From assembly GCA_944359365.1 (NCBI GenBank), contig CALVST010000016.1, positions 1 to 42,733 on the forward strand: a stretch of DNA of 42,733 bases. Direction: 5' to 3'. The notes under the pieces were generated by a model. It searched no databases. It was not told the origin of the DNA and was given only the letters and a program-made list of their open reading frames with translations. Source of the DNA: an uncultured Clostridia bacterium. Lineage in GTDB: Bacteria > Bacillota > Clostridia > Christensenellales > Borkfalkiaceae. Positions 5,716-33,743 of this stretch are shown here, piece by piece. Made by a program: the position numbers and the translations under genes. Position 1 is the first letter of the stretch, and each line of letters begins with the position of its first letter.

Positions 5716-7177
5716 TATCGCAAAAAAATTCAGTGCTGCATACGAGTACATGGACGGTCTCAGTGTATACGAGGTACGCAATATTGCGCGTGAAATGGGC
5801 ATCCGTTCCCCTACGACGGAGAAAAAAGGGGAGCTGATCGATCAGATCATCAGCGTGGAAGCAGGGCTGTATTCGCCCGCAGTAAAAACGAGCAATAAAG
5901 GCGCCCCGACGAAGGCGGCAAAGGTACCCGAGGCTGTCATTCGCGATATAAAAAGGCTGATCGCCGAAGGAAGGCAGATCGAACCTTATCCCGCGCCGAG
6001 CGGGGGCGGAGGCGTCAGCATAACGTTCCGCGATTCCGATCCCGCGCCTTCCGGTTACGGCGACGGCATTTACGGAGGCATTTTAGAAATGCATCCGCAG
6101 GGATACGGTTTTTTGCGCGCGGAAAATTGCGAACCCGGAAAAAAAGACGTGTTCGTTTCCGCACCCGTGATCCACAAATTCAAGCTCAAAAGCGGCGATC
6201 AGGTGCAGTGCTATGTCAAGCAGAACCGCGACAGCGGTTCGCCCGCGCTCGAACGGCTTGCGGCAGTCAACGGAAGGATGCCGTCGGGCCCCGTTGAACG
6301 CCCCGATTTCGACGACCTTACGCCGCGTTATCCCGATGAAAGGATCCTTCTCGGCGAGAGCGGAAAACTTTCTTTGCGGTGCATCGATCTGATGTGCCCG
6401 ATCGGGAAGGGACAGCGCGGGCTGATCGTTTCTCCCCCGAAGGCGGGCAAGACGACGCTTTTGAAGGATATAGCCCGCTCTATTGCGGAAGAACATACGA
6501 ATATCCACCTCATTATTCTGCTCATCGACGAGCGCCCGGAAGAGGTAACGGATATGCAGGAGAGCATTCCGCAGGCGGAGATCGTATATTCCACCTTTGA
6601 CGAGTCTGCAGAGCACCACGTCGAGGTGTCGCGCCTGATCCTCGACAGGGCAAAGCGCATTGCGGAAAGCGGCGGAGACGTCGTTATCCTGCTCGATTCG
6701 ATCACCAAGCTGACGCGCGCATATAACAACGTAGTGCCGTCTTCGGGGAAAATTTTATCGGGCGGGCTGGATCCCGCGGCGCTCGGCGGACCGAAAAAGT
6801 TTTTCGGTTCTGCGCGCAGTTTCGGCAAAGAAGGTTCTCTTACCATACTTGCAACCGCTTTGGTGGATACGGGCAGCAGGATGGACGACGTTATCTATGA
6901 AGAGTTCAAGGGCACCGGGAATATGGAGATACATCTTTCCCGCGACCTTGCCGAAAGGCGCGTGTTCCCCGCAATAGATATATATCGGTCTGGCACGCGG
7001 AAGGAAGAGCTTTTGCTCGGCGAACAGGAACTCGCCTGTTCTTATGCGATACGCCGCACCTTTGCTAAAGAGAATGCGACCGAACTGTTGTTCGAACTGA
7101 TGAAAAAGACGAAAAGCAATGAAGAGCTCGCCGCAACGGCGGGTGAATGGTCAAAAACATATAAAGCACAGAGGTAA
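5708..7177 (+). CDS. rho: transcription termination factor Rho
   Basis: This is the hexameric RNA-dependent ATPase that ends transcription at Rho-dependent sites. It has 489 residues. An N-terminal Rho_N-type helical domain (about 5-60) is followed by a Gly/Pro-rich linker and a cold-shock-like primary RNA-binding domain (about 118-185, GILEMHPQGYGFLRA). The RecA-type motor has Walker A PPKAGKTT (243-250), Walker B VVILLDSITKL, and the Q- and R-loop region with GGPKKFFGSARSFGKEGS. The length is slightly above that of E. coli Rho because of the linker. GGAGGTGAAG precedes the start. It is encoded inside an operon of metabolic genes, so its own level may feed back on the shikimate genes through termination; that is inference. 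Confidence 0.97.
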   Translation: MDDIAKKFSAAYEYMDGLSVYEVRNIAREMGIRSPTTEKKGELIDQIISVEAGLYSPAVKTSNKGAPTKAAKVPEAVIRDIKRLIAEGRQIEPYPAPSGGGGVSITFRDSDPAPSGYGDGIYGGILEMHPQGYGFLRAENCEPGKKDVFVSAPVIHKFKLKSGDQVQCYVKQNRDSGSPALERLAAVNGRMPSGPVERPDFDDLTPRYPDERILLGESGKLSLRCIDLMCPIGKGQRGLIVSPPKAGKTTLLKDIARSIAEEHTNIHLIILLIDERPEEVTDMQESIPQAEIVYSTFDESAEHHVEVSRLILDRAKRIAESGGDVVILLDSITKLTRAYNNVVPSSGKILSGGLDPAALGGPKKFFGSARSFGKEGSLTILATALVDTGSRMDDVIYEEFKGTGNMEIHLSRDLAERRVFPAIDIYRSGTRKEELLLGEQELACSYAIRRTFAKENATELLFELMKKTKSNEELAATAGEWSKTYKAQR

Positions 7178-7185
7178 CTGCAATT

Positions 7186-8148
7186 ATGGCACAGTACTAT
7201 GTAGGCATCGATTTCGGCGGCATGAGCGCTAAGGCGGGGCTTTTTGATGCCGGTTCGCGCATGATCGCCAAAGACACTGTAAAAACATCGAAAGACGACG
7301 CGTATGCGACGACGGTCGCAAAAATGGCGCAGCTTGTGAAAAAGCTCTGTCAGGACAATTCCGTCCCCCTCAACAGCGTAAAGCGGGTGGGGTTGGCGTC
7401 TCCCGGCGTTATCGACAGCAAGGAAGGCGTAGTCGTCCGTTGGGGCAATTACAGTTGGGAGGATAAACCTCTCGCAAAAGATATGAAGGCGGCGCTCGGC
7501 ATCGATGTGCGCGTGGTGAACGACGCGAATGCCGCCGCTTACGGCGAGGCTGTTTACGGCGCGGCGAAAGACTTCAAAGACAGTATTTTCATCACCCTGG
7601 GTACGGGTGTCGGCAGCGGCATCATCCTCGGAGGGAAACTCTTTGAAGGTGTTTGCGGCGCGGGCGCTGAGGCGGGGCACATGGTCATTCAGGTCGGCGG
7701 CATTCCCTGCGGCTGCGGCAGAAGGGGGTGCTTCGAACAGTACGCATCCGCATCCGCGCTCATCCGCGATACTAAGCGGGCGATGTTCGAGCATAAAGAC
7801 AGCCTCATGTGGGAGCTCGTCGGGCGCGATCCCGAAAAGGTAGACGGCAAAACGGCTTTCGCGGCATCCAAAGAAGGGGACGCTGCCGCGCAGACCGTCG
7901 TCAAAAATTACATCATGTATTTGGGTGAAGGGATACTCAACCTAGTCAGCATTTTCCGTCCCGAGGCGGTCATTCTCGGCGGCGGCGTCTGCAACGAAGG
8001 GGAATATCTCCTTGCGCCCCTGCGCAAATACGTCGCCGAGCGGCTGTATGTCGGCTGCGACAGAGTGCCGCTCACGCTCAACCGCGCGGTGCTCGGCAAC
8101 GACGCGGGCATTTACGGCGCGCTCGCGTTCGCGATGGACGAATCGTAA
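7186..8148 (+). CDS. ROK family sugar kinase (glucokinase-like)
   Basis: This 320-residue ATP-dependent sugar kinase has the phosphate-1 loop GIDFGGMSAKAG at the N-terminus. Substrate and catalytic residues lie in VVNDANAAAYGE, where the Asp is the base. The phosphate-2 loop is ITLGTGVGSGII. The ROK zinc signature CGCGRRGCFEQYAS, preceded by EAGHM, distinguishes ROK kinases from other hexokinase folds. A final adenosine motif (VILGGGVCNEG) is near the C-terminus. Most Clostridia use a ROK enzyme as glucokinase, so glucose is the likely substrate, but this cannot be proven from sequence. It lies nine bases after rho with AGAGG before the ATG. Confidence 0.93.
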   Translation: MAQYYVGIDFGGMSAKAGLFDAGSRMIAKDTVKTSKDDAYATTVAKMAQLVKKLCQDNSVPLNSVKRVGLASPGVIDSKEGVVVRWGNYSWEDKPLAKDMKAALGIDVRVVNDANAAAYGEAVYGAAKDFKDSIFITLGTGVGSGIILGGKLFEGVCGAGAEAGHMVIQVGGIPCGCGRRGCFEQYASASALIRDTKRAMFEHKDSLMWELVGRDPEKVDGKTAFAASKEGDAAAQTVVKNYIMYLGEGILNLVSIFRPEAVILGGGVCNEGEYLLAPLRKYVAERLYVGCDRVPLTLNRAVLGNDAGIYGALAFAMDES

Positions 8149-8151
8149 AAT

Positions 8152-8916
8152 ATGTTTTCAGGCAAAAAGGGCATTTCCCTCGCGCTCGGCAGCGGCGGGG
8201 CAAAGGGCTTGGCGCATATAGGCGCGCTCAAAGCGCTGGAAGAGTGCGGGCTGCGCTTTTGCGCGGTCGCGGGAACATCGATCGGCAGTATCGTCGGCGC
8301 GCTGTACGCGAAGGGGTATTCCCCGACGGATATCGCAGAGCTCTTGCGGCGTTTTGATTTGAAGGGCATGGCGCTCTCCGTGCTCGCGGCGGGCACCGTC
8401 GCGCCCGTGCGCGACGCGCTCGATTCCATGCTCGACGAAAACGTTTTTTCCGAACTGCGCCTGCCGTTCGCTGCAATCGCAACGGATGCCGACAGCGGCG
8501 AAGAAGTCGTCCTTCGTTCGGGCAAAGTTGCCGACGCGGTGCTTGCGTCTTCGGCGATGCCGCCCTTTTTTAAGGGGATACGGTTGGATGACAGGCTGTT
8601 GTGCGACGGCGCTTTTACGAACGCCGTTCCCGGCGACGTGGCAAGGGCGCTCGGCGGCGATTTCGTGATCGGCATATCCCTTTCCCCTGCGGAAAATTAT
8701 GCCTGCACGCGCTTTCTTGCAAGAAACGGCAAGGAAATAGAGTGCCGTCAGCGCGGCATCAAAAGTTGCGATTTCATGTTGGAGCCTGACCTTTCGCAAT
8801 TTTCCGCGACTGACATAACGTCTGCGGCGGTAATGTACGATATCGGTTACGAATGCGCGCACAGCCGCGCGGGCGAGCTTTTGGACGCGCTGCGCGCTCA
8901 TCATATAAAAATCTGA
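8152..8916 (+). CDS. patatin-like phospholipase family protein
   Basis: This 254-residue protein is a patatin-type serine lipid hydrolase. The oxyanion-hole glycine run is GSGGAKG (13-19). The nucleophile elbow GTSIG has Ser43, and the catalytic Asp of the dyad is Asp152 in DGAFTN. There is no signal peptide or transmembrane segment, so it acts on membrane lipids from the cytosol or is peripheral. The closest bacterial type is the RssA/YchK group, whose substrate is poorly known. It starts three bases after the ROK kinase stop without an obvious Shine-Dalgarno site, so it may depend on translational coupling. Confidence 0.92.
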   Translation: MFSGKKGISLALGSGGAKGLAHIGALKALEECGLRFCAVAGTSIGSIVGALYAKGYSPTDIAELLRRFDLKGMALSVLAAGTVAPVRDALDSMLDENVFSELRLPFAAIATDADSGEEVVLRSGKVADAVLASSAMPPFFKGIRLDDRLLCDGAFTNAVPGDVARALGGDFVIGISLSPAENYACTRFLARNGKEIECRQRGIKSCDFMLEPDLSQFSATDITSAAVMYDIGYECAHSRAGELLDALRAHHIKI

Positions 8917-8935
8917 ACAAAAGAGGCTTTTTCGA

Positions 8936-10045
8936 ATGAGCGGTAAGGATGCCGCCGTCCGCGAAGCCGCGGGCGGAAAGAAAAGCAAAAGATCGAAAAA
9001 ACTGCGCATATTGGCGCTCTGCCTTGCGGGCATACTGCTCATCTCACTCGCGCTCGTTCTTATACACTTCCTGTATTGCCCGATCAATTATCTTTGGGTA
9101 AAGTTTTCCAATCCCGATATCCCGGCGCGGCGCGAAGGGGAACTGCGCGTTCATTTTATCGACGTGGGGCAGGGCGATGCGATCGCCGCGGAACTTCCCG
9201 ACGGCAAAACCATGCTCATAGACGGCGGCGACGAAACGCACGGCGCAAAGAGCGCGCTTTTGCGTTACGCCAACGCGCTCGGCATAGATGAATTTGATTA
9301 TGTTTTGCTGACGCATCCCGATTCCGACCATGCCGGCGGCATGGACGACGTACTCAGATGTTTCGGCGCGAAAAAGGCGTTTATACCGTATTCGCGCAAT
9401 TATGCGCCCGGCTCTTCCTATGACGATTTTCTCGGCGCGCTTGCGGATGTGGGCTGCGCAACGGAAATATCGCACACATTCGGCGCAGCGCTTTCCGAAA
9501 GCGAGGAATATTTTTACTACATGATGTTCCTTTCGCCCTTCGGTCCCGGTCTTGCGGGGAGCTATTACGATATCGCCAATGCGGAAGGCGCTACCGATAC
9601 CGACGTGAACAACGCATCCGCCGTCATGTGGATGGAATATGCGGGGCGCGGTATCCTGTTTACGGGCGACATTACGTCCGAAACGGAAGAAAAACTCCTT
9701 TCCGACTATGAAGTTTTGGGCGCAGACTGTTTCAAACAGGTCTGCGAAACTTCGTGGGGCGAAAAAGTGACGCTTGCGCCCGCACTCGATTCTTTGGACT
9801 TTCTGAAAGTCGCGCATCACGGCTCGGCATATTCTACGTCGGCAGATTTTTTGGAACTTACCTCGCCCGAGGCCGCGTTTATCAGTGTGGGCGCGGGCAA
9901 CGCTTACGGGCACCCTTCGCAGGAAACGGCGGCGCGCCTTGCTGAGGCGGGCGCGGAAATATACCGAACGGACGAACTCGGCAGCATCATGCTCACGATA
10001 TGTGCCGACGGAACTTATACGATAGACTATCTCGGCCGCACATAG
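8936..10045 (+). CDS. membrane-anchored metallo-beta-lactamase-fold hydrolase, ComEC C-terminal type
   Basis: This 369-residue protein has a Lys/Arg-rich cytoplasmic tail (1-22), one transmembrane anchor (about 24-46) and an extracytoplasmic MBL domain. The domain follows the ComEC/Rec2 C-terminal pattern: HFIDVGQGDAI, LLTHPDSDHAGGM, GILFTGDI, KVAHHGSAYSTS and GHPSQET. These hold the histidines and aspartates of a two-metal site. Unlike full ComEC it lacks the competence channel domain. Stand-alone proteins of this type are common in Firmicutes, with proposed nuclease or hydrolase roles. An insertion (about 170-215) between the metal motifs is longer than usual. AGAGG precedes the ATG. aroC follows after 21 bases. 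Confidence 0.9.
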   Translation: MSGKDAAVREAAGGKKSKRSKKLRILALCLAGILLISLALVLIHFLYCPINYLWVKFSNPDIPARREGELRVHFIDVGQGDAIAAELPDGKTMLIDGGDETHGAKSALLRYANALGIDEFDYVLLTHPDSDHAGGMDDVLRCFGAKKAFIPYSRNYAPGSSYDDFLGALADVGCATEISHTFGAALSESEEYFYYMMFLSPFGPGLAGSYYDIANAEGATDTDVNNASAVMWMEYAGRGILFTGDITSETEEKLLSDYEVLGADCFKQVCETSWGEKVTLAPALDSLDFLKVAHHGSAYSTSADFLELTSPEAAFISVGAGNAYGHPSQETAARLAEAGAEIYRTDELGSIMLTICADGTYTIDYLGRT

Positions 10046-22338: not shown

Positions 22339-25300
22339 TTATTTATTTTCGCCGTCTTCATCTTTTTTGTCTGAGCTATCCGATTCGTCTGCATAAGGAT
22401 CGGTGTCTTCCGGCGTATTTTCTGTATCTTCCACGCGGTAGATATCTTCCTCGGTGATCTCGTCGTCATCGTCGGGGAGAACATCATCCTCGGGCTTATC
22501 ATCGGCGTCGTCAGATTCTTCGGCAAGCTTCAGTTTTCTTACATAGCGGGAACGCTGTGCGTTGTACTGCGGCGTGTTGCGTACCTTGTTCTTGCGGATG
22601 TTTGCAAGCAGACGCTTCACAAGCAGGGAGATGAGAGTTACGAACAATGCCGCCGCCAAGATAATAGAGGGGATAAGCAGCCAAAGGTTGGTTTCGGAAC
22701 CGCCGCCCGCCGTATCTTCCGTCGTGTCGTCGTCGGTAGAACCGTCGCTCGTTGCTACGTCGATCTCGCTTGCGCCGTAGTTGATATAAGCGGTGTATTC
22801 GAGCGCTTCGCTGTCGCTGAACTTCAAGTATGCGACGGTATCCGAATAAGAGGAAGCATCGTAATCTGCGTAGGGATCGGACTCTCTTGTTTCAAGGTCA
22901 TTATTTTCGTCATAAGGCGCGTAATTCAGACTGTCGAACAGAGAGAAGTGGTAGTAGATAAGCGATGTAGCGCTGTCGGCAGTGCCGATGAATGCGGTGG
23001 GATCTTCTTTATACGCTTCGAGGATGTCGTCCGTCGTCGTATAATTTTCGCCGAATGCGCCGTTCCTGCCGAGCGTCTGCAGATCTTCTTCTACAAGAGC
23101 GTCAAAAGTCGTTTGGTTGAGTTCGGTATATCCCGCCTGATCGAATATGACGTAACTTTCGCCTGCCATCTGCGTTTGATTGTCGCGCGAGCCGCTCCAA
23201 ACTTCGAGGCGGTAGGTCTTTTCTTCAGCTCCGTTCGCGATGAGGAAACTCACGTTGATCCATTTGTTTGCGTTTTCGGGAGTTCCCTTGATGACCTGTA
23301 CAAGTTCTTTGCTCTGCTCGCTCTGCAGCGTCGCCGCGGCGAGCCTGTCCGCATCTACCTGTGCGTTTTTGAAGTCGTTCACGCGGACGCTGTAAGTGTC
23401 GTTATCTTCGTTATGATACCTATAGAAGGCGCCGTCGTGCAGGTAATATACGATGTTGCCGTCAGAGTCGATATAGTTGCCGTCGTCGTCCGTGTCATAG
23501 TTGGAAAGATTTGCGTAATATACATCGCCGCTGTGCCTTTCCGTCGTCGACCACAGCCCGTTGTCTTGCTTATAGAAGAGGGTATCGGTATCGGCGTCAA
23601 AATCTTTATCGTCGGGATCTTTTGTCACGACGTTGCCGTCTTCATCATATCTGTAAGAGATGCCCGAAGAATAGGTGAGATTTTCGCTGTACTTTCTCGT
23701 TTCCGCGCTGCTTTCGGTAGACGCGTCGATGAGATAGATATAAGCTGTTGCATTCGCACTCATTTTGACGCGGAGCGTTACCTGCGCGTAGGAGGATGCC
23801 GATATTGTGGTTTCGGCGCCGATATAGCCGAACGAGCGAGCTGCCGTTTCGACTGTGTTGACGATGAGCAGAGGCTGCGTCGTTTCATTGCCGAATACCG
23901 TGTTCCACCAATTGGATTTGGTCAAAGCGTTCGCGTAGCAGGTGTTTATCGTAGACAGCCAATCTGCGGCAGGGGAGTTTTCATCGGATCCCCAATAGTT
24001 GTCCGCATATTTTTTATTGATAAGCCCGGACGTTGAGGCGGTCTTTTCGCCCGACGTGTCGATGGACGAGCCGCCGACGTATTCGGAACCGCCGTAAACG
24101 CCTTTATAGTTGCGCGGATCCGCAAAGCCGCTTTCGATAGCCGCCGAACCTTCGGTGCCATCGGTATAAGCGGGATCGTCGAACACTACGGAAGAATCCG
24201 CATTGTCGGGATCGTCCGTAAGCGCCACGTTCACTGCGTAGGTGCCGGTCGAAGCGAGGGATGCTTCTTCGGCGCTCAGATAGGTGTATTCAAAGCCCGT
24301 GAACGCCGCATAGCCGTCTGCATAGGCGGAGAAAGCCGTGTCTACGATGTTGGTAGGGCCGAAGTTGAATTCTAAGGTAAAGGTGATCTCGTCCTTGTCG
24401 GTGTCATTGGAAACAAAGAAGTAGCACTGCTGCCATCCGTCGAAAATATCTTCGGTAGTGCCGTTATCATCGGAAATGTCTACGGTCGAAAGGGTGGTCG
24501 TATCTACCGCGCCGATGGCGGTGTTCGTTTCATAATTGACGAGCGTGACCGTACCGCCGGTAGCGCCGTTCATCGCCGAAGTCTTCACCCAGAAACGGAT
24601 CATGAGCGTTTCGTCTTTCGCTACGGTGAACAGCTCGTTCTGTACGTTTGCCGTGCTGCCCTGCTCCGTGCCGTCGTTGAGTACCGCTTTATAGGGGGCG
24701 CCTTTGGCGCTGTAAAGCATAAGGATCTGCGTGTCTGCGCCGAACAGGTCGTTGAACTTCGCAAAATCGTCTACGACGGACTGCGCATAACCTGCCGCCG
24801 TCGTGATGGAGGAAGAGGAGATGACGCCCGATTTATTGATATCGTCCGATTTATTGATATCGTCCGCCTGCGTCGCGGTCAGAAGCGCCGCGTTGTCCGC
24901 CCCGATATAATCGGCAAGGGTATAGGTCTTTCCGTTTCTTTCCGCATCCGTCACGGCAGGTTTGACGCCTGCAGCAAGGTCGATCTGATCGACGCCCGCA
25001 TTGTTGCCTTCATAAAGGCCGAACACGTCGCAGTCGAGCGCGTAATTCCTGACAGAACTGAACGCTCCCGAGATCGCATCGAATTTTTTGTCGCTGCCGT
25101 CGGTGCTGAGTACATCCAAATATGTTTCATGCGCGCCCGATTCGCTGACGGCTGCGTCATATTCGGATGCCGTCATGACTTCGTATTTGAGGTCGTCGAA
25201 GAAGGCATAGCCCTGCACATATTCGTATTGGTTGTCGTCTACGCTGTTCGTTCTGCCGAGACCGAGATATACGGTAAAGGTGGTGGACGCATAGGAAGAA

Positions 25301-26151
25301 GCCTTCAAATAAACGGTGTACTGCACCCAACCGTAATCGTTGTTTTGCGTATTGAGCTTTTGCGTGTCGATATTCTGTATGACGAGGGGATCCTGTTCCT
25401 CGCCGACGGTGTTTGCAATTTCGATGTACGCGCCGCGGTTGCCGTCAACATCCGTATTGTTATTGTATTTTAAGCCGTAAGTTTTTACCCATACGGAAAC
25501 TTTGACCGCCGAACCCGCGGGTACGGTAACGGAAGAAGAAGCGTAACGGGCCGCCGTGCCGCTGTCGCTCGTGCTCGTGCGGTAGTTGTGCAGCATGAGC
25601 ACGTGCGTTTCCTCGTCTTTCTTTTCGTCGTCGGCGGCATAATGCGTGCCGGGGTTGACTGCGTCTATCTCTGCATTGGAGATGGTCTCGTAGGTCAGAT
25701 CCTCGTCATCCTCGCCGAGTTTTGCGTTGGCAAGATCCCACCCGGGCATATCGTGGTCGTCCTCGATATCGGTGAAATAATCTTCCGTGTCTTCCTCGGT
25801 GCTGTCTTCGTCCTGCAATATCTCGTATTGCCGGCGGGCAAGTTTGAACTGTTCGCCCCAGTTCATGGACGTATCCACGATGCCCGACTTCGCGGCGGAA
25901 GCGCTGCCCTGCGAGGAAAGCGTCCAATTGTCGGGGCTGGCGATAAGGTTCGTGCCGTCGCTGTCGTCGAAGAACTCGAAATTCGCGTTCGAAAAAGTCT
26001 GCGTGTCCGTCGGAGTCTCCGTCGTGTCGTCTTCATTGTCTGTGGTACCCGAACAAGCCGAAAGGATCATACCGCAGGATGCAAGCAGCATGATGAATGC
26101 CAAGATCCATGTCGTGAGCCTCAGTTTGCCGAGTTGTCTGTTTTTTGCCAT
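22339..26151 (-). CDS. very large acidic lipoprotein with three jelly-roll-like modules and a C-terminal transmembrane helix
   Basis: I do not recognise this 1270-residue protein. It opens with a lipoprotein signal (about 1-33) that holds two lipobox candidates, LASC (Cys26) and LSAC (Cys33). A Thr/Asp-rich linker follows. Three similar strand-rich modules come next, near residues 200-335, 500-630 and 780-1018. Each has a [FV]WVKT or LRVKM-type strand and closes with an FFDDLKYE-, FTGFEYTYL- or VIFDQAGYT-like segment before a T/S-x-x-E/T turn. They resemble carbohydrate-binding jelly rolls. A transmembrane helix (about 1152-1180) and a basic then strongly acidic tail end the protein. ATG 26151 is chosen because the GTG three codons earlier is part of the AAAGGTG ribosome site. 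A surface glycan-binding role is inference. Confidence 0.8.
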   Translation of the reverse strand: MAKNRQLGKLRLTTWILAFIMLLASCGMILSACSGTTDNEDDTTETPTDTQTFSNANFEFFDDSDGTNLIASPDNWTLSSQGSASAAKSGIVDTSMNWGEQFKLARRQYEILQDEDSTEEDTEDYFTDIEDDHDMPGWDLANAKLGEDDEDLTYETISNAEIDAVNPGTHYAADDEKKDEETHVLMLHNYRTSTSDSGTAARYASSSVTVPAGSAVKVSVWVKTYGLKYNNNTDVDGNRGAYIEIANTVGEEQDPLVIQNIDTQKLNTQNNDYGWVQYTVYLKASSYASTTFTVYLGLGRTNSVDDNQYEYVQGYAFFDDLKYEVMTASEYDAAVSESGAHETYLDVLSTDGSDKKFDAISGAFSSVRNYALDCDVFGLYEGNNAGVDQIDLAAGVKPAVTDAERNGKTYTLADYIGADNAALLTATQADDINKSDDINKSGVISSSSITTAAGYAQSVVDDFAKFNDLFGADTQILMLYSAKGAPYKAVLNDGTEQGSTANVQNELFTVAKDETLMIRFWVKTSAMNGATGGTVTLVNYETNTAIGAVDTTTLSTVDISDDNGTTEDIFDGWQQCYFFVSNDTDKDEITFTLEFNFGPTNIVDTAFSAYADGYAAFTGFEYTYLSAEEASLASTGTYAVNVALTDDPDNADSSVVFDDPAYTDGTEGSAAIESGFADPRNYKGVYGGSEYVGGSSIDTSGEKTASTSGLINKKYADNYWGSDENSPAADWLSTINTCYANALTKSNWWNTVFGNETTQPLLIVNTVETAARSFGYIGAETTISASSYAQVTLRVKMSANATAYIYLIDASTESSAETRKYSENLTYSSGISYRYDEDGNVVTKDPDDKDFDADTDTLFYKQDNGLWSTTERHSGDVYYANLSNYDTDDDGNYIDSDGNIVYYLHDGAFYRYHNEDNDTYSVRVNDFKNAQVDADRLAAATLQSEQSKELVQVIKGTPENANKWINVSFLIANGAEEKTYRLEVWSGSRDNQTQMAGESYVIFDQAGYTELNQTTFDALVEEDLQTLGRNGAFGENYTTTDDILEAYKEDPTAFIGTADSATSLIYYHFSLFDSLNYAPYDENNDLETRESDPYADYDASSYSDTVAYLKFSDSEALEYTAYINYGASEIDVATSDGSTDDDTTEDTAGGGSETNLWLLIPSIILAAALFVTLISLLVKRLLANIRKNKVRNTPQYNAQRSRYVRKLKLAEESDDADDKPEDDVLPDDDDEITEEDIYRVEDTENTPEDTDPYADESDSSDKKDEDGENK
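24830..24865 (-). repeat. 18-bp perfect in-frame tandem duplication in the lipoprotein gene
   Basis: GATTTATTGATATCGTCC occurs twice in a row (24830-24847 and 24848-24865, plus-strand reading). It adds six residues (DDINKS twice) without a frameshift, so it looks like a slippage product. Confidence 0.9.
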
Positions 26152-26350
26152 ATCAAACACCTTTACTGTAATATTGGAGAATTGAACCGAAGAAAATGCT
26201 TTATCGGTAAATTCAAAATCGTACTATCTTATTCTAATATAAATGTCGATTAAAAGCAAGCGATAACGGTTAAAAAAACGTGAAATTTGAATTAATTTTT
26301 CTCCGATAGGGGTAAACTATCCTATATATAGGGAAAAAGGAGAGTGCGAT
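26152..26350. promoter_or_regulatory. AT-rich divergent intergenic region
   Basis: This 199-base gap separates two divergent genes and must hold both promoters, but neither has a clear consensus pair. The palindrome CCTATATATAGG (26321-26332), 18 bases before the TauE start, overlaps a possible -10 and could be an operator. Confidence 0.4.
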
Positions 26351-26713
26351 ATGGCGGATATGAAGAACGAGCGTATACTTTTGGCGGGCGGCTTGCTTAC
26401 GGGCGCGGTAAACGGTCTGTTCGGAGGCGGCGGGGGCATGATCGTCGTGCCCTTCCTGACGGGCATAGCGAAAAAGCCGCCGCTCGCGGCGCACGCGACG
26501 GCGATACTGATCATCCTGCCCGTCAGCTTTGTGAGCGCGGTGCTGTACCTTATCAACGGCTACTTCGATGCGGAGCTGTTTATCGCCGTTTCGTTGGGCG
26601 TGACCTTCGGGGGCTTTCTCGGGGCGCGGGCGCTCAATCTGATGTCTGCGGGGGAGGCGACGCTGCTGTTTGCCGCCGTCATGTTCGCGGCAGGAATCCG
26701 GATGATCTTTTGA
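26351..26713 (+). CDS. TauE/SafE family half-transporter, N-terminal type
   Basis: This 120-residue membrane protein has four predicted helices (about 8-34, 46-68, 73-92 and 98-118). The helix-1 glycine motif NGLFGGGGGM marks the TauE/SafE family of anion exporters (sulfite, sulfoacetate and related). A full-length family member has about eight helices made of two homologous halves, and here each half is a separate gene. AAGGAGAG precedes the ATG. The partner half begins 28 bases after the stop. The exported substrate is unknown. Confidence 0.85.
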   Translation: MADMKNERILLAGGLLTGAVNGLFGGGGGMIVVPFLTGIAKKPPLAAHATAILIILPVSFVSAVLYLINGYFDAELFIAVSLGVTFGGFLGARALNLMSAGEATLLFAAVMFAAGIRMIF

Positions 26714-26741
26714 TCGCGAAGAAAAACAAAGGGAGATATAT

Positions 26742-27134
26742 ATGCGTTTTCTTATCTATCTTATAGCGGGCATCGCGGGCGGCGTGCTCGGCGGCATGGG
26801 CATGGGCGGCGGCACCGTGCTTATACCTATCCTTACGATTTTCTGCGGCGTGGAACAGCATCTCGCGCAGTCGGTCAATCTGTTTTCCTTTCTGCCGATG
26901 GCGCTTTTGTCTTTGAAGGTGCATTTTTCCAACGGGCTCGTCGATACCAAAGGGATCGCGTGGATGATCGTGCCGGCGGTGCTGCTTTCGGGCGTAGGCA
27001 GCTTTTTCGTGAAAGAGCTGTCGGGACCTGTTTTGCGCTCGGCGTTCGGCGTGTTTTTGTGCATGCTCTCCGTCTGGCAGGCGTATCAGGGAGTGCGGCA
27101 GATCAGGCAAAAACGCGCGAAAAAGGCGGCATAA
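26742..27134 (+). CDS. TauE/SafE family half-transporter, second half
   Basis: This 130-residue protein also has four predicted helices and its own glycine motif GGMGMGGGTVLIP in helix 1, followed by SVNLFSFLPMA. The C-terminus is basic (RQIRQKRAKKAA), placing it in the cytoplasm. It has an independent ribosome site (AGGGAG). I therefore read the pair as two genuine subunits that form a heterodimer, not as a frameshifted gene. It ends 58 bases before the rnf promoter. Confidence 0.85.
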   Translation: MRFLIYLIAGIAGGVLGGMGMGGGTVLIPILTIFCGVEQHLAQSVNLFSFLPMALLSLKVHFSNGLVDTKGIAWMIVPAVLLSGVGSFFVKELSGPVLRSAFGVFLCMLSVWQAYQGVRQIRQKRAKKAA

Positions 27135-27272: not shown

Positions 27273-28598
27273 TTGTTAGGATTTTCAAACGGCGTGCATC
27301 CGAAAGGGCGCAAAACGCTCACGGCAGGTGAAAAAATTGGGCGAGGTCCCGAACCCGATGCGGTATACGTCCCGCTCTTGCAGCACATAGGAAGCCCCGC
27401 CGTTCCCGTTGTGGAAGAGGGGCAGCGCGTCCTGTGCGGCGAGCTGATCGCAAAGGCTGCGGAAGGGCTTTCCGCAAACGTCTATTCGCCCGTTGCGGGC
27501 ACGGTGAAGGGCGTCGTCGGGCACATCACCCTTTCGGGCAAAAAGGCGGATCATATCCTGATAGAAAATGACCGCACGGACGAGAGGGCGTTTTTGCCGC
27601 CGCTTGCAGACAGGTCGCGCGAGAGTATTTTGGCGCGCATCGCGGAAGCGGGCATCGCAGGCATGGGCGGCGCGGCATTCCCTACGGCGGTGAAGCTCGG
27701 CACGGATAAAAAAATAGACGTTCTCGTCGTCAACGGCGCGGAATGCGAACCGTACATCACCTGCGACCATCGCATCATGTTGGAATTCGCGGAACAGGTC
27801 GTAAAGGGGATACGTCTCTGCATGGCGGCTTGCGGCGCGGACAGGGCAGTTATAGGCATAGAAAACAATAAAAAGGACGCCGCCGCGGCTTTGGCGCCCT
27901 TTGCGGAAAATATACGCATAAAACTGCTCAAAACCAAATACCCGCAGGGGGCGGAAAAGCAGCTCGTTTACGGCTGCACGGGGCGGACGATCCCCGAAGG
28001 CGCTTTGCCTGCCGACGCGGGCGTGCTTGTTGTCAACGTGCATACGGCGCTCGCCGTATATAAGGCGGTGGAAGAGGATACGCCCTGTTACGAACGGGTG
28101 ATGACGGTGAGCGGCGGCGCCGTTGAAAAGCCCTGCAACATATGGGTGAAAAACGGGACGCCTTACCGCGACATCGCTGCGTTTTGCGGCGGGCGGGAAG
28201 ACTGTGCCCGCATCGTATCGGGCGGGCCGATGATGGGCGAGCCGGTATTTTCTTTGAAGATATGCACAGCCAAGGGCACTTCCGCGCTTTTGTTTTTGAA
28301 CGAAGACGAATGCGTCAGCAAAAAGGCGGAGCCATGCATAGGCTGCGGCAGGTGCGTGCAGGCGTGCCCGATGGGGCTGTCGCCCGTCTTTATCGAACGG
28401 GCGGCTTTCGATAAAAAATATGAAGAGGCGGCGGTGTACGGCGCGGAACAGTGCATCGGCTGCGGCTGTTGTTCGTACGTGTGCCCCGCAAAGCGTTTCC
28501 TCGTGCAGAGCGTGAAACTTGCAAAAAAGGTGCTCAAAGGGTGGCGCGAGAAAGAGCGGGCGAAAAATAACGGAGAAGGAGCTGAGAAAAATGGCTGA
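27273..28598 (+). CDS. rnfC: electron transport complex subunit RnfC
   Basis: RnfC is the NADH-binding iron-sulfur subunit on the cytoplasmic face of the ferredoxin:NAD oxidoreductase. The 441 residues show an N-terminal biotinyl/barrel-like domain (VEEGQRVLCGELIA) and a Complex I 51-kDa-like NAD/FMN fold with GMGGAAFPTAVKLG and VNGAECEPYITCDHR. Two [4Fe-4S] motifs follow, CxxCxxCxxxC at Cys355-Cys365 and at Cys394-Cys404. Translation starts at TTG 27273 with AGGAGG at the correct distance; no ATG fits. It is the first gene of the rnf operon. Confidence 0.95.
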   Translation: MLGFSNGVHPKGRKTLTAGEKIGRGPEPDAVYVPLLQHIGSPAVPVVEEGQRVLCGELIAKAAEGLSANVYSPVAGTVKGVVGHITLSGKKADHILIENDRTDERAFLPPLADRSRESILARIAEAGIAGMGGAAFPTAVKLGTDKKIDVLVVNGAECEPYITCDHRIMLEFAEQVVKGIRLCMAACGADRAVIGIENNKKDAAAALAPFAENIRIKLLKTKYPQGAEKQLVYGCTGRTIPEGALPADAGVLVVNVHTALAVYKAVEEDTPCYERVMTVSGGAVEKPCNIWVKNGTPYRDIAAFCGGREDCARIVSGGPMMGEPVFSLKICTAKGTSALLFLNEDECVSKKAEPCIGCGRCVQACPMGLSPVFIERAAFDKKYEEAAVYGAEQCIGCGCCSYVCPAKRFLVQSVKLAKKVLKGWREKERAKNNGEGAEKNG

Positions 28599-31149
28599 GA
28601 TCGCCAATTATAAAGTTGCGGCTTCTCCGCACGAACTCGACAACGCATCTACCCGCCGCATCATGCTCGACGTGCTCATCGCGCTCGTGCCCTGTCTGGT
28701 CATGGGCGTCGTGTACTTCGGGCTGTATGCGCTCATGCTCGTGGCGATCTGCATGGCTGTCTGCTTTGCGAGCGAACAGATATATAATTTGATCCGTAAA
28801 AAGCCTTTGACTTTCGACCTGTCGGCATTGGTCACGGGGCTTATCCTCGGGCTGAACCTTCCGCCGCGCGCGCCCTGGTACATCCCCGTCATCGGCGGCG
28901 TGTTCGCCATCATCGTCGTAAAGATGCTTTTCGGCGGCTTGGGCAGGAATTTTGCGAACCCCGCCGCAGCGGCGCGGGTATTCCTCCTGCTCGCTTACAG
29001 CAGTACGATGTCCTCGTTCATCGGGGCGGATATCCCCGGCAACATTCTCGCCGGCGACGTTTCTACGGGCGGGACATATCTCGGCGGCGGTCTTGCCGCG
29101 CTCGGCGAAGGATTCCTCGGCGCGGAAGGGTATTGGGGCTATGTATTGCAGCTGTTTTTCGGAAATGTCGGCGGGAGCATCGGCGAAACGTGCAAAAAAG
29201 CCGTACTCGTCGGCGGCGTTTACCTCATCGCCCGCAGGGTGATCGATTGGCGCATCCCCGCGGTCTGCCTGCTTACGTCGGCGATGTTCGCGCTCTTCTT
29301 CTGGAACAGCGCGCAGGAAATTTTGTTACAGCTCTTTTCGGGCGGGCTGATGTTCGGCGCTTTCTTTATGGCGACGGATTATGCAACCTCTCCCAAATGG
29401 AAATATAACCGCGTGTTTTATGCGTTCGGCATAGGCGCGCTCACGATGGTCATTCGCCGGTTCGGCTCTTATCCCGAAGGCATGTCGCTCGCCATCCTGT
29501 TCATGAACCTGCTCGTCCCCGCGATGGACAGATTTATTCTTCCCGTGCGTTTCGGTCAGCAAACGAAAAAGGGAAAGAAGAAGCCGCATATCGCCAAATG
29601 GACGGCGCGCGGGCTCGCCGCCGCCATGCTTTTGGCGCTCGCGGTGGGAACGCCCGTCATTGCGGTGGCGGAATACAGGCGTCCCGCCGAGATCGAGCTT
29701 GCGGCAGCGTACCGCTATATTCAGAGTGCCTCGCGCGACAGGAACGGCAAATATTATTTTGACGTGCAGGGCGGCGCGGCGATCACGGACGAATATACGC
29801 AGCAGCTCGAATATACCGTCACGATAGACAGCGTATCGGGCACGGTTGCGGAAATTGTGCCGATCACGCAGAGCACGATGGGATATACCGCGGACCTCAC
29901 ATTGTTCGCGGGAAAGACGTATGCCGAAGTTGCGGCTCTTTCCGACCTTTCGTCTACGGATGTTCCGCCCGATTCTGATACGAGCGCGACAAAGACGAAT
30001 ACCGCGCTCAAAGGGATGGTCGAAGAGTGCTTTATCGCCGCCGATGCGGCGGAGCACGCGCAGGAACTGCCTTTGACGACCTTCAACTATATCAGGGGCA
30101 TTGCCGATTCTTCCCTGTTCGAAGGCAGGGCGTATCTCGTATCGGGAAGCGCTGAGATCACCGATGCGTATACGCAACAGCTCTTGTATTATGCGGTCGT
30201 GAATGAAGGGACGGTGACGGACATCGTGCCGCTCGTGCAGAGCACGATGGGCTATACCGCCGACCTCACGCTGTTCGAGGGGAAAGGGTATGCCGAAATT
30301 GCGGCTCTTTCCGACCTCTCTTCCACGGATATCCCCACAGATGCGGACACGAGCGCTACAAAGACGAACACGGCACTCAAAGCCATGCTCGAAGAGTGCC
30401 TGCTCGAATACGATACGTCGGCGGCTCCGCTCTCCCTTCCCGAAAACCTTTCTTATGTGAAAGCGGCGGGCGATTCGTCGCTGTACGAGGGCAGGGCGTA
30501 TCTCGTGGCAGGAAGCGCTGCGATCACCGATGCGTATACGCAGCAGCTCATTTATTACGTCGTCGCCGACGGCGGCATCGTAACGGAGATCATTCCCGTG
30601 CGCCAGAGCACGATGGATTATACGGCAGATCTCACGCTGTTTGAAGGGAAGGGGTATGCCGAAATTGCGGCGCTTTCCGACCTCTCATCCACGGATATCC
30701 CGCCGGACGCGGACACGAGCGCGACAAAGACGAACACGGCTCTTAAAGCCATGCTCGAAGAGTGCCTGCTTACGGACGACGTGCTGTCGGGTTCCGTACA
30801 GCTGCCCGCGGGGCTTTCGTATGTAGGGGCGGCGGGGGATTCGCAGCTGTTCGGCGGAAGGTCGTATTTGGCGTCGGGCTATGCAGACCTTTCGGAATAC
30901 GATTACCGCCAGCCGCTGCTGTTCTATATAAACATTCAGGACGGGAAAGTCGCGCAGATATTGCCTCTGCGCCAGAGCACGATGGGCTATACGGCGGAAA
31001 TATCCCTCTTTATCGGGAAGACGGCGGAAGAAGTCGAAGGGATATTACAGCTTTCCGCAGACACCGAAACGAGCGCGACACGCACGAATACGGCGCTGAA
31101 AGCGATGATACTCGAATGTTTTGCGGCGCAGGGAGGTGATGCGGCATGA
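28591..31149 (+). CDS. rnfD: RnfD fused to a second membrane anchor and four tandem FMN_bind-like repeats
   Basis: Residues 1-325 are a normal RnfD: a polytopic membrane subunit with the blocks LTFDLSALVTGLILGLNLPP and GRNFANPAAAARV. Its candidate covalent-FMN loop is STGGT (Thr162), with Gly where SGAT has Ala. An ordinary RnfD ends here. This one continues through a Lys-rich linker, an extra transmembrane helix (about 341-360) and four repeats (383-508, 509-630, 631-752, 753-852). Each repeat has a strand core, a QSTMGYTA- or QSTMDYTA-type turn and a closing motif DTSAT (ETSAT in repeat 4). The last Thr of that motif (467, 590, 712, 830) is placed like the residue flavinylated by ApbE in RnfG and NqrC. 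ATG 28591 follows AAGGAG and overlaps rnfC by eight bases. The function of the extension is inferred. Confidence 0.9.
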   Translation: MAEIANYKVAASPHELDNASTRRIMLDVLIALVPCLVMGVVYFGLYALMLVAICMAVCFASEQIYNLIRKKPLTFDLSALVTGLILGLNLPPRAPWYIPVIGGVFAIIVVKMLFGGLGRNFANPAAAARVFLLLAYSSTMSSFIGADIPGNILAGDVSTGGTYLGGGLAALGEGFLGAEGYWGYVLQLFFGNVGGSIGETCKKAVLVGGVYLIARRVIDWRIPAVCLLTSAMFALFFWNSAQEILLQLFSGGLMFGAFFMATDYATSPKWKYNRVFYAFGIGALTMVIRRFGSYPEGMSLAILFMNLLVPAMDRFILPVRFGQQTKKGKKKPHIAKWTARGLAAAMLLALAVGTPVIAVAEYRRPAEIELAAAYRYIQSASRDRNGKYYFDVQGGAAITDEYTQQLEYTVTIDSVSGTVAEIVPITQSTMGYTADLTLFAGKTYAEVAALSDLSSTDVPPDSDTSATKTNTALKGMVEECFIAADAAEHAQELPLTTFNYIRGIADSSLFEGRAYLVSGSAEITDAYTQQLLYYAVVNEGTVTDIVPLVQSTMGYTADLTLFEGKGYAEIAALSDLSSTDIPTDADTSATKTNTALKAMLEECLLEYDTSAAPLSLPENLSYVKAAGDSSLYEGRAYLVAGSAAITDAYTQQLIYYVVADGGIVTEIIPVRQSTMDYTADLTLFEGKGYAEIAALSDLSSTDIPPDADTSATKTNTALKAMLEECLLTDDVLSGSVQLPAGLSYVGAAGDSQLFGGRSYLASGYADLSEYDYRQPLLFYINIQDGKVAQILPLRQSTMGYTAEISLFIGKTAEEVEGILQLSADTETSATRTNTALKAMILECFAAQGGDAA
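29737..31146 (+). repeat. four tandem FMN_bind-like coding repeats inside rnfD
   Basis: Repeat boundaries are about 29737-30114, 30115-30480, 30481-30846 and 30847-31146. Repeats 2 and 3 have exactly the same length (366 bases) and are nearly identical in DNA across their second halves, which points to a recent duplication. Repeats 1 and 4 are more diverged. Confidence 0.88.
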
Positions 31150-31688
31150 GCGGCAAAGTCAGATCGATGATACAGGGCGTTGCGGTGCTTGCATGTATCG
31201 CGCTTGTATGCGGGCTGTTGCTCGGCGCGGTCAATTATTTCACCTATGTCGATCCGCTGCAGCCCACGCTCGACCGTTTCACGTCGGATACGGGGGCGAC
31301 TTTCCCCGAAATGACGGACGAGGACGGGCAGGAATTTGAAAACGGGCGTATCGTCTATTACGCCCGCTCCGCAGACGGGGCATATGACGCATTTCTCGCC
31401 GCGGGCGGCGGCGGATGGGGCGGCGAAGTACAGCTTTACGTCTACCTGCAAGGCGGGGTGATACAAAAAGTCGTTCTCGGCGACAATTCGGAAACGCTCT
31501 GGGATACCTTTGAATCGGACTTTTTCGATCAGTTTACGGGGCTGGACGTTTGCTCAGCCGATTCTTTTACGGAATCCGACGTGTCGACGGGCGCGACGGC
31601 GTCCAGGACCATCCGCGCGGTTGCCCGCGCGATAGACGCCGTTGTCGCATATTATAACGCAAATTTGGAGGGAGGGAGCAATGGATAA
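31146..31688 (+). CDS. rnfG: electron transport complex subunit RnfG
   Basis: RnfG is the extracytoplasmic flavoprotein subunit of Rnf, held by one N-terminal helix (about 8-30). The 180 residues include a strand-rich FMN_bind domain (GEVQLYVYLQGGVIQKVVL) and the flavinylation motif DVSTGATAS, where Thr151 would receive FMN from ApbE through a phosphoester bond. The NSETLWD turn corresponds to the family SETPG segment. The start overlaps the rnfD stop (ATGA), and AGGGAGG precedes it. This is a complete ordinary RnfG, so the rnfD extension is additional and not a displaced RnfG. Confidence 0.94.
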   Translation: MSGKVRSMIQGVAVLACIALVCGLLLGAVNYFTYVDPLQPTLDRFTSDTGATFPEMTDEDGQEFENGRIVYYARSADGAYDAFLAAGGGGWGGEVQLYVYLQGGVIQKVVLGDNSETLWDTFESDFFDQFTGLDVCSADSFTESDVSTGATASRTIRAVARAIDAVVAYYNANLEGGSNG

Positions 31689-32358
31689 AGCGAAAATAAA
31701 AGAGACCGTGCTCGGCGGCATCATCAAGAACAACCCGACCTTCGTACTCGTTTTGGGTACCTGCCCGACCATCGCCATGACGACCAGCCTTTCGCAGGCG
31801 TTTGCGATGGGCGTGGCGACGACGTTCGTGCTCATCTTTTCCAATCTGTTCATCAGCCTGCTGCGCGGGCTGATCCCCGACAAGGTGCGCATTCCCTGTT
31901 ACATCGTCATCATATCTACCTTCGTTACGATCGTCAGGATGGTCATGCAGAGGTTCATGCCCGACCTGTACGGCACGATGCGGGCGTTCATAGACCTCAT
32001 CGTCGTGAACTGCATCATTTTGGCGCGGGCGGAAAGCTTTGCCTCCTGCAACAAGCCGCTGTACGCCGCATTGGACGGCGTTTCGGTGGGGTTAGGATTC
32101 ACGGGCGCGCTCTGCCTGATCGGCATCGTGCGCGAATTCCTTGCGGGCGGTTCGTTCGCGGGCATTGCCATACCCGGGTTCCCCGCAATGTCGGGCACGG
32201 GCGCAAGCGCATTCGGGTTCATCGTTTTCGGCTGCCTGATGGCGCTGTTCAATTTTATTATTCAGAAGTTGGAAGCGCGCAAGGAAAAGATGAAGCGCGC
32301 CTCTCTTCCGCTTTTTGACGGCAAAGCAGAAATCGTCAAGGAGGGCACGGAAAAATGA
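31681..32358 (+). CDS. rnfE: electron transport complex subunit RnfE
   Basis: RnfE is a polytopic membrane subunit of about six helices that pairs with RnfA in the ion-translocating core. The 225 residues contain LGTCPTIAMTTSL in the first helix, with the Cys that holds a membrane iron-sulfur centre. The second homologous stretch is IVVNCIILARAESFAS. The family block GVSVGLGFTGALCLIGIVREF follows. ATG 31681 is chosen because GGAGGGAGGG lies before it. It overlaps rnfG by eight bases. Confidence 0.95.
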   Translation: MDKAKIKETVLGGIIKNNPTFVLVLGTCPTIAMTTSLSQAFAMGVATTFVLIFSNLFISLLRGLIPDKVRIPCYIVIISTFVTIVRMVMQRFMPDLYGTMRAFIDLIVVNCIILARAESFASCNKPLYAALDGVSVGLGFTGALCLIGIVREFLAGGSFAGIAIPGFPAMSGTGASAFGFIVFGCLMALFNFIIQKLEARKEKMKRASLPLFDGKAEIVKEGTEK

Positions 32359-32939
32359 CAGTTTCCATTCTTTCCGTCATGTTTGCGGCGGTCATTTCCG
32401 ACAACATCGTACTTTCGCAGTATCAGGGGATCTGTCCTTTCCTCGGCGTATCCAAAAAGATCTCCAGCGCGGCAGGCATGGGGTTTGCAGTCATATTCGT
32501 CATGGCGGTCTCTTCCGTATTTACATGGCTCGCGTACAACTATATCCTTCTGCCGCTTGAATTGGATTATCTGTATATCATCGCTTTCATCCTCATCATA
32601 GCCAGCCTTGTGCAGCTTACCGAGATCATCGTCAAACGTTTTTCGCCCACGCTGTACAGCGCGTTGGGTGTGTATCTGCCGCTCATTACGACCAACTGCG
32701 CCATTTTCGGAACGGCAAACAGCGCGGTCGTTTACAGTTCGTATGCCTTTATCGAAACGTTTGCGGTTTCGGTGGCGACGGGCGTAGGGTTCCTGCTCGC
32801 CATCGTTCTGCTCGCCTGCGTGCGGCTGAAATCAGACAGGGCAGACATCCCGAAGTGTTTCAAGGGCTTTCCCATCACGCTGGTCACGGCGGCGATCATG
32901 GCGCTCGCTTTTGCGGGCTTTGCCGGCATTCTCGCATAA
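32355..32939 (+). CDS. rnfA: electron transport complex subunit RnfA
   Basis: RnfA is a six-helix membrane protein, homologous to RnfE but inserted in the opposite orientation. The 194 residues include the start-proximal block SDNIVLSQYQGICPFLGVSKK and the mirrored LPLITTNCAIFGTA. Each contains a Cys that coordinates the intramembrane iron-sulfur cluster shared with RnfE. The length is typical. The start overlaps the rnfE stop (ATGA), with AAGGAGGG upstream. Confidence 0.96.
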   Translation: MTVSILSVMFAAVISDNIVLSQYQGICPFLGVSKKISSAAGMGFAVIFVMAVSSVFTWLAYNYILLPLELDYLYIIAFILIIASLVQLTEIIVKRFSPTLYSALGVYLPLITTNCAIFGTANSAVVYSSYAFIETFAVSVATGVGFLLAIVLLACVRLKSDRADIPKCFKGFPITLVTAAIMALAFAGFAGILA

Positions 32940-32948
32940 GGAGCGCAA

Positions 32949-33743
32949 ATGGAAGTATTCGTTCAGATTTTGATAGCGGGCGGAATATTGCTCGCCATAG
33001 CGCTTGTTTTCGGCATTATCCTCGTCATCTGTTCCAATGTATTTGCGGTGAAGAAGGACGAACGCGTAGGACAGGTGGAAAAACTTTTGGCAAATTCGAA
33101 TTGCGGCGGCTGCGGCAGGGCGGGCTGTGCGCAGTTTGCCGAGGCGCTCGTGAAGGGCGAGGCAAAACTTTCCGACTGCAAAGCCACGCCTTCGGCAAAT
33201 AAGGAAAAGATCGCCGAACTTTTGGGCGGCGGCGATATCGGCGAAGAGACGGTAGCCGTCGTGCACTGCAACGGCGGAAATGCCTGTTACAACAAATACG
33301 ATTATCAGGGCTACGGCAACTGCGCCTCGTGCGAGCTGATCGCGGGCGGCGTAAAGGCGTGCCCCGTGGGGTGCATCGGCAAAAAGACGTGCGCAGACGT
33401 CTGCCCGCACTATGCCATCGACCTCGGCGACGGCGGCTATTCCGTTGTGGATAAGGAAAAGTGCATATCCTGCGGCGTATGTATAGATAACTGCCCCAAG
33501 CACATCATCGGGCGCATCCCGAAAAACGCGAAGGTTTTCATCGCCTGTTCCAACCACGGCAAGGGCAAAGAGGTCATGGAGCTGTGCAAAAACGGCTGTA
33601 TTGCCTGCGGCATCTGTGCGAAGAACTGCCCCGAAGGCGCCATAACGATGAAGGACGGGATCCCGGAAATAGATTATAAAAAATGCACGGGCTGTTTGAC
33701 CTGCGTGCATAAGTGCCCCCGCCATTGCATCAAGGAACACTGA
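32949..33743 (+). CDS. rnfB: electron transport complex subunit RnfB
   Basis: RnfB is the ferredoxin-accepting iron-sulfur subunit. The 264 residues begin with one membrane anchor (about 4-32). The Fe-S domain NCGGCGRAGC follows, with ligands Cys52, Cys55, Cys60 and Cys77. A Cys-rich middle section then leads to [4Fe-4S] motifs including CISCGVCIDNCP, CIACGICAKNCP and CTGCLTCVHKCP. An additional Cys group, CPVGCIGKKTCADVCP, precedes these. AAGGAG lies before the ATG. It completes the operon rnfC-D-G-E-A-B. Confidence 0.96.
   Translation: MEVFVQILIAGGILLAIALVFGIILVICSNVFAVKKDERVGQVEKLLANSNCGGCGRAGCAQFAEALVKGEAKLSDCKATPSANKEKIAELLGGGDIGEETVAVVHCNGGNACYNKYDYQGYGNCASCELIAGGVKACPVGCIGKKTCADVCPHYAIDLGDGGYSVVDKEKCISCGVCIDNCPKHIIGRIPKNAKVFIACSNHGKGKEVMELCKNGCIACGICAKNCPEGAITMKDGIPEIDYKKCTGCLTCVHKCPRHCIKEH

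Follow-up and report, generated by a model that had tools for sequence, protein, structure and literature searches.

RNF clusters with a multi-flavinylated RnfG, including some from Christensenellales, have been described, and a bifurcation has been proposed for them in which a second path leads to alternative extracytosolic acceptors (PMC8238504, Meheust et al. 2021). According to the accessible part of that paper, what multi-flavin proteins do is for the most part unclear, and their neighbor genes are the basis for inferring their electron source. These proteins have been proposed as flavin counterparts of multi-haem wires. A related arrangement, carried by a different subunit, is found in a 42,733-nucleotide stretch of DNA (here, the window) from an uncultured Clostridia bacterium of the family Borkfalkiaceae (GenBank assembly GCA_944359365.1, contig CALVST010000016.1, positions 1 to 42,733). 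Its rnfD gene lies within an rnfCDGEAB cluster (rnfC upstream; rnfG, rnfE, rnfA, and rnfB downstream), and the product ends in one further transmembrane helix and four divergent RnfG/FMN_bind-type domains; relatives carry 1 to 5. As in the multi-flavinylated RnfG, at least as the accessible text of PMC8238504 presents it, tandem domains of the FMN_bind type belong to a part of an Rnf complex from the same order that is extracytosolic, here probably so; unlike there, they sit on RnfD behind an extra helix, next to a separate short RnfG.

An extra module at the C terminus of the NqrB/RnfD core is also present in the NQR/RNF-like systems (PMC8238504, PMC11334425), where, in the portions of these papers available to us, the system has two subunits and the module is an NAD-binding domain on the cytosolic side, unlike the Borkfalkia tail. 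Those portions describe fusions of NqrB/RnfD with the NAD domain only, and the corresponding parts of PMC12174285 and PMC4014512 contain no such tail. A literature search, which covered titles and the beginnings of abstracts, with subscription journals mostly outside its range and supplementary tables unread, returned no RnfD tail of this kind.

Translation of positions 28591 to 31149 gives 852 codons with no inner stop, in agreement with the single uninterrupted frame reported in the initial annotation. The match to PF03116 (NQR2_RnfD_RnfE) at residues 9 to 322 (E = 2.4e-103, 346 bits) spans the whole core and confirms it as RnfD; the TIGR01946 score is 271.9 bits against a cut-off of 207.05. 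Core residues D156 and T162 are unchanged in all 31 aligned proteins, and T162 aligns with the last Thr of the TTAT motif in two solved RnfD chains, in which this residue presumably carries FMN. The extra hydrophobic helix, first placed at about residues 341 to 360, is recovered as a segment at 339 to 363 by hydropathy and as a helix at 333 to 363 in the AlphaFold2 model. In ordinary RnfD, the C terminus is cytoplasmic. The loop just before the extra helix (residues 320 to 338) contains 7 Lys/Arg and no Asp/Glu residues, and the tail after the helix contains 68 Asp/Glu versus 26 Lys/Arg. The extra helix and this charge pattern fit a tail that is probably outside the membrane; the outside location given to the repeats in the initial annotation agrees with both features, from which we infer it.

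The tail consists of four repeats of ~120 residues. At the DNA level, it contains five families of direct repeats with 2 to 4 copies each, which are 66 to 83% like the reference copy and are spaced 354 to 375 nucleotides from start to start. Each protein repeat includes the motif D-x-x-T-S-A-T-[KR]-T-N-T-A-L, and the four tandem repeats with their threonines (Thr467, Thr590, Thr712, and Thr830) are exactly where they had been placed before. An alignment was made of 68 homologous tail domains, with 2 of the 70, which are cut by contig ends, left out. At the positions of the motif D-x-x-[S/T]-G-A-[S/T], Asp and Ala are found in 68 of 68 domains and the acceptor Thr in 67. According to the accessible text of PMC4348036, NqrC holds its flavin through Thr229, Thr231, Thr177, and Leu180/Gly181; these are equated by alignment with T104, T106, T66, and Y69/T70 of the tail domain, and the first three of these tail positions are occupied by Thr in 67, 62, and 57 of the 68 domains, respectively.

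The relationship of these domains to FMN_bind is seen through relatives. In a scan of the 68 domains against Pfam, 20 match PF04205 at E ≤ 10 (best, 2.9e-5), which makes it the leading family; the runner-up matches 4. Comparison with hhalign gives E = 2.4e-5 and a probability of 75 for the tail versus the Borkfalkia RnfG (reversed control, E = 0.84 and 0.05) and E = 3.1e-4 and a probability of 39 for the tail versus an FMN_bind alignment (A3) built from 20 of 30 loci (reversed control, E = 0.28 and 0.2). The FMN_bind HMM assigns at least 5 bits to 26 of the 68 domains; among the controls, 1 of 68 reversed sequences and 5 of 680 shuffled ones reach this score, with scores reported for 62 reversed and 642 shuffled ones. 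These searches support the view that the tail domains are divergent members of the RnfG/FMN_bind type. When the tail was searched against PHROGs and PDB sequences, the results were weakly matching families whose function is unknown (best E = 0.0013) and an antibody chain (E = 0.34), all taken as chance.

The AlphaFold2 models have a mean pLDDT of 85.9 for a single tail domain and 77.8 for the full protein, with the tail blocks mostly at 78 to 95. The modeled domain has four strands and two helices, one short and one long, and each acceptor Thr is found two residues into the last helix. The strand order and the position of the Thr fit FMN_bind. The stand-alone proteins SaFMN3 and CbFMN4 differ in that each of their domains has two helices with three strands, as given in the part of PMC10339131 that could be consulted. 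Foldseek comparison of the single-domain model lists structures of CbFMN4, SaFMN3, NqrC, and RnfG at E = 0.43, 0.58, 0.83, and 1.3, among SufU and unrelated ones. The full-length model retrieves RnfD/NqrB by its core, and the best 50 rows contain no FMN_bind protein.

Each tail domain of the window protein contains exactly one Cys (C480, C603, C725, and C843), 13 residues past the acceptor Thr, and this Cys is present in 66 of the 68 domains. The spacing suggests that it points toward the core of the domain.

The genus with the tailed RnfD is Candidatus Borkfalkia, a group of gut bacteria. A protein search of 61 genomes finds an rnfD match in 34 of 37 genomes of this genus, the source genome included; the other three (G008, G014, and G025), all incomplete, have no such match. 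The fusion sought in relatives is present throughout: all 34 of these genomes encode tail domains. Because every genus genome with an rnfD match carries them, the tailed RnfD is no assembly accident. In G017, G024, and G033, contig ends or frames break up the gene, which leaves 31 uninterrupted copies from 31 genomes, with one tail domain in 10, two in 14, three in 3, four in 3, and five in 1. Misassembly, or the chance fusion of an unrelated repeat protein, might explain why Pfam gives no match for the window repeats themselves, but the same architecture in all these frames and the repeated FMN_bind matches of the relatives make it exceedingly improbable. Tail-domain dN/dS ratios between species range from 0.03 to 0.31 in 11 pairs, and are rough because dS exceeds 1 in 7 of them; the set comprised 13 chosen pairs, of which the 2 within one protein give 0.20 and 0.55. 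At the sequence level, the tail is thus shown to be under purifying selection.

A survey of 101 family genomes gives an RnfD match in 51. Ten of them are Borkfalkia, all tailed, and in the other 41, the match stops by residue 352 (G433 and G454 are fragments). The RnfD-borne form is not seen in these 41 relatives. Among 396 genomes of the order, the tail profile matches two Borkfalkia genomes as well as G215 and G226 (E = 5.9e-4). The protein from G215 resembles FMN_bind (PF04205, E = 0.00093, short of the cut-off); the one from G226 has no Pfam match and resembles that of G215 by eye only. The only other match in 391 genomes of the class (E = 7.8e-4) is in a protein that by eye is an HflX-like GTPase and is taken as chance, so that an E value near 1e-3 proves little for this profile. 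Neither the order nor the class set holds anything else convincing. A scan of 84,980 species (one genome each) with two conserved peptides, which reaches close relatives only, finds 34 loci, 6 from Candidatus Borkfalkia and 28 from uncultured Clostridia or Firmicutes; three of them beyond the genus genomes (L088, L095, and L108) also combine RnfD, tail, and rnfG.

The genome encodes one ApbE (G000:C1:159502-160329, E = 1e-52), the transferase for which the initial annotation had suggested looking. By eye, its product has a lipobox-like, lipoprotein-like start, and the gene adjoins those for NusG_II and Hpre_diP_synt_I proteins. ApbE would attach FMN to one Thr per domain, four in the window protein. 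The tethered flavins could then accept electrons from the extracytosolic flavins of RnfG/RnfD and, as a side relay, hand them to an acceptor outside the membrane, beside the ordinary ferredoxin-to-NAD route. Flavinylation of at least some tail domains is likely. For the electron branch to an outside acceptor, the chances are slightly short of even, and we regard it as an even question whether the Borkfalkia Rnf is a variant in which RnfD carries an extracytosolic, ApbE-flavinylated relay that passes electrons to such an acceptor; this is the likeliest of the readings considered. More tentatively, and with the balance tipped against it, this might be a genus-wide variant whose flavin array of variable length makes a fermentative ion pump a branch point to acceptors outside the cell. 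In the tailed RnfD, the tail would be linked covalently to the membrane electron source; since close species have 1 to 5 domains on the same core, any dependence of electron export on tail length is directly testable.

Several observations weigh against such a relay. The window's own repeats do not match PF04205 up to E = 1 and score just 1.1 to 6.0 bits with the FMN_bind HMM, so their FMN_bind-like nature, as first claimed, holds by way of the relatives and not by a direct match. No PDB structure matches the single-domain model at E ≤ 0.001, and the two top-ranked Foldseek chains are SufU; of the predicted fold, the succession of strands and helix and the Thr at the helix start speak for FMN_bind, and the structure comparison does not. 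For domains 1 to 3, the pLDDT just ahead of the motif drops to 55 to 68; some segments of the models are below 50. The motif Gly is replaced by Ser in all four window repeats, and a change of this Gly to Ala gives ~50% flavinylation, according to the accessible text of a review (PMC12052999). A tail of a single domain, found in 10 of 31 complete proteins, weakens the idea of a flavin wire put forward in the initial annotation. In the assembly, which is 89.7% complete, no protein matches PF04205 at E ≤ 0.001, a threshold that the genome's own rnfG also misses, so that other divergent FMN_bind proteins could have been overlooked. PF04205 and PF00890 searches of the genome revealed no extracytosolic partner protein. 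The sole full-length PF00890 match, a candidate for a fumarate-reductase-like partner, adjoins nadA- and nadC-like frames, looks like NadB, and was rejected.

Some of these points would also suit domains that derive from FMN_bind, have lost the flavin, and today act as cell-wall spacers or docking modules. Besides the weak Foldseek result, such a role might account for the state of the motif Gly position (Ser in 52 domains, Gly in 15, and Asn in 1 of the 68), for the third domain of the G002 protein (r3), which is the single one without the acceptor Thr, and for STMG in place of ETPG. It is nonetheless quite improbable, as a spacer would be unlikely to keep the acceptor Thr and the motif Asp almost without exception and to show the low between-species dN/dS values given above. 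Ser at the Gly site looks tolerated, because the G026 protein mixes TGAT (domains 2 and 3) with TSAT (domains 1 and 4), and RnfG itself has SSAT in G010 and TSAT in G033.

As initially noted, a separate rnfG follows rnfD; the two genes overlap by 4 nucleotides. This rnfG had also been called normal, which does not hold: it scores 17.3 bits with PF04205 (E = 0.0078; cut-off, 22) and E = 0.1 with TIGR01947. It retains DVSTGAT. A separate rnfG is present in 34 of 34 genus genomes, which upholds the description of the tail as an addition and not a rearrangement. The genus RnfG has D-x-x-[S/T]-G-A-[S/T] in 24 of 34 genomes; the 10 departing ones, G022 and G036 among them, have sequences such as SSAT, TSAT, TSST (TTSST), SNAT, and ASAT.

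In other families, ten Rnf loci, chosen mostly for long frames, were examined (L148 and L149, also fetched, have no rnfD): 6 encode RnfD with one FMN_bind domain, 1 a four-domain RnfG, 1 a two-domain RnfG, and 2 a plain RnfG. The six fusions (L067, L143, L144, L145, L146, and L147), from other Christensenellales families, join RnfD and an RnfG-type FMN_bind domain in a single gene (frames of 526 to 570 residues). As in Borkfalkia, the FMN_bind domain is C-terminal to the RnfD core; unlike in Borkfalkia, there is one domain, and no separate rnfG is found in the stretch seen in any of the six. An FMN_bind domain can therefore sit on RnfD within the normal circuit. This allows another, somewhat unlikely, reading, in which the tail is flavinylated and works inside the complex: on its tether, it would act like RnfG as a shuttle, or would store electrons, and so help to pass them between RnfG/RnfA-E and RnfD, and no outside acceptor would be involved. 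One domain suffices in nearly a third of the complete proteins, the genome search gave no outside partner, and where the RnfG motif departs, the tail could share the work of RnfG. However, the ordinary carrier is not missing, because a separate rnfG is always present and mostly has the full motif, and up to 5 copies go beyond the need of a shuttle.

An origin of the tail from these fusions was considered and dropped because their RnfD cores fall in a group apart from Borkfalkia, a placing to be taken with caution given several long branches. Within the window's own family, RnfG has two further domains in 2 of 6 loci (L158 and L163). The tail profile matches these extra domains weakly, with 9 to 11 bits each, around an STYG stretch, which in L163 is followed by F.GKT, as in the tail. 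From these sequences, the Borkfalkia RnfD has probably been extended with domains of the family's tandem FMN_bind stock, as found on RnfG, with RnfG kept. Multi-domain RnfG, with two to four FMN_bind-type domains, occurs both within the window's own family and more widely in the order (L150:4940-7045, L066:2362-3771, L158:4742-6121, and L163:3640-5055). In L147, a frame of 1153 residues directly after rnfB (positions 6107-9565) contains FMN_bind-like stretches, three of them clear and as many as six in all. The 822-residue frame of G292 is not a fusion: RnfD terminates at a TAA codon, which is followed directly, without a change of frame, by the first codon of rnfG.

The features of the Rnf cluster are listed in Table 1.

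Table 1. Coordinates of the rnf genes and of the parts of the tailed RnfD in the window
Feature	Positions	Strand	Evidence or remark
rnfC	27273..28598	+	
rnfD with C-terminal tail (852 residues)	28591..31149	+	Open frame; PF03116; same architecture across genus
RnfD core, residues 1-340	28591..29610	+	PF03116; D156 and T162 (DVSTGGT) at RnfD flavinylation motif site
Extra transmembrane helix, residues 339-363	29605..29679	+	Hydropathy, AlphaFold2 model
Tail domain 1, ~residues 364-486, Thr467	29680..30048	+	
Tail domain 2, ~residues 487-609, Thr590	30049..30417	+	
Tail domain 3, ~residues 610-731, Thr712; STMD where others have STMG	30418..30783	+	
Tail domain 4, ~residues 732-852, Thr830	30784..31146	+	
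Separate rnfG, divergent, with DVSTGAT	31146..31688	+	
rnfE	31687..32358	+	PF02508
rnfA	32355..32939	+	PF02508
rnfB	32949..33743	+	FeS and Fer4 domains

Elsewhere in the window, the minus strand encodes a protein of 1273 residues (22339-26160), which has no Pfam match at E = 0.01; by eye, it starts like a lipoprotein and has a hydrophobic stretch close to the C terminus. Positions 26351 to 27134 contain two neighboring half-size TauE/SafE genes; the profile's second half is matched by the first gene, and its first half by the second gene.

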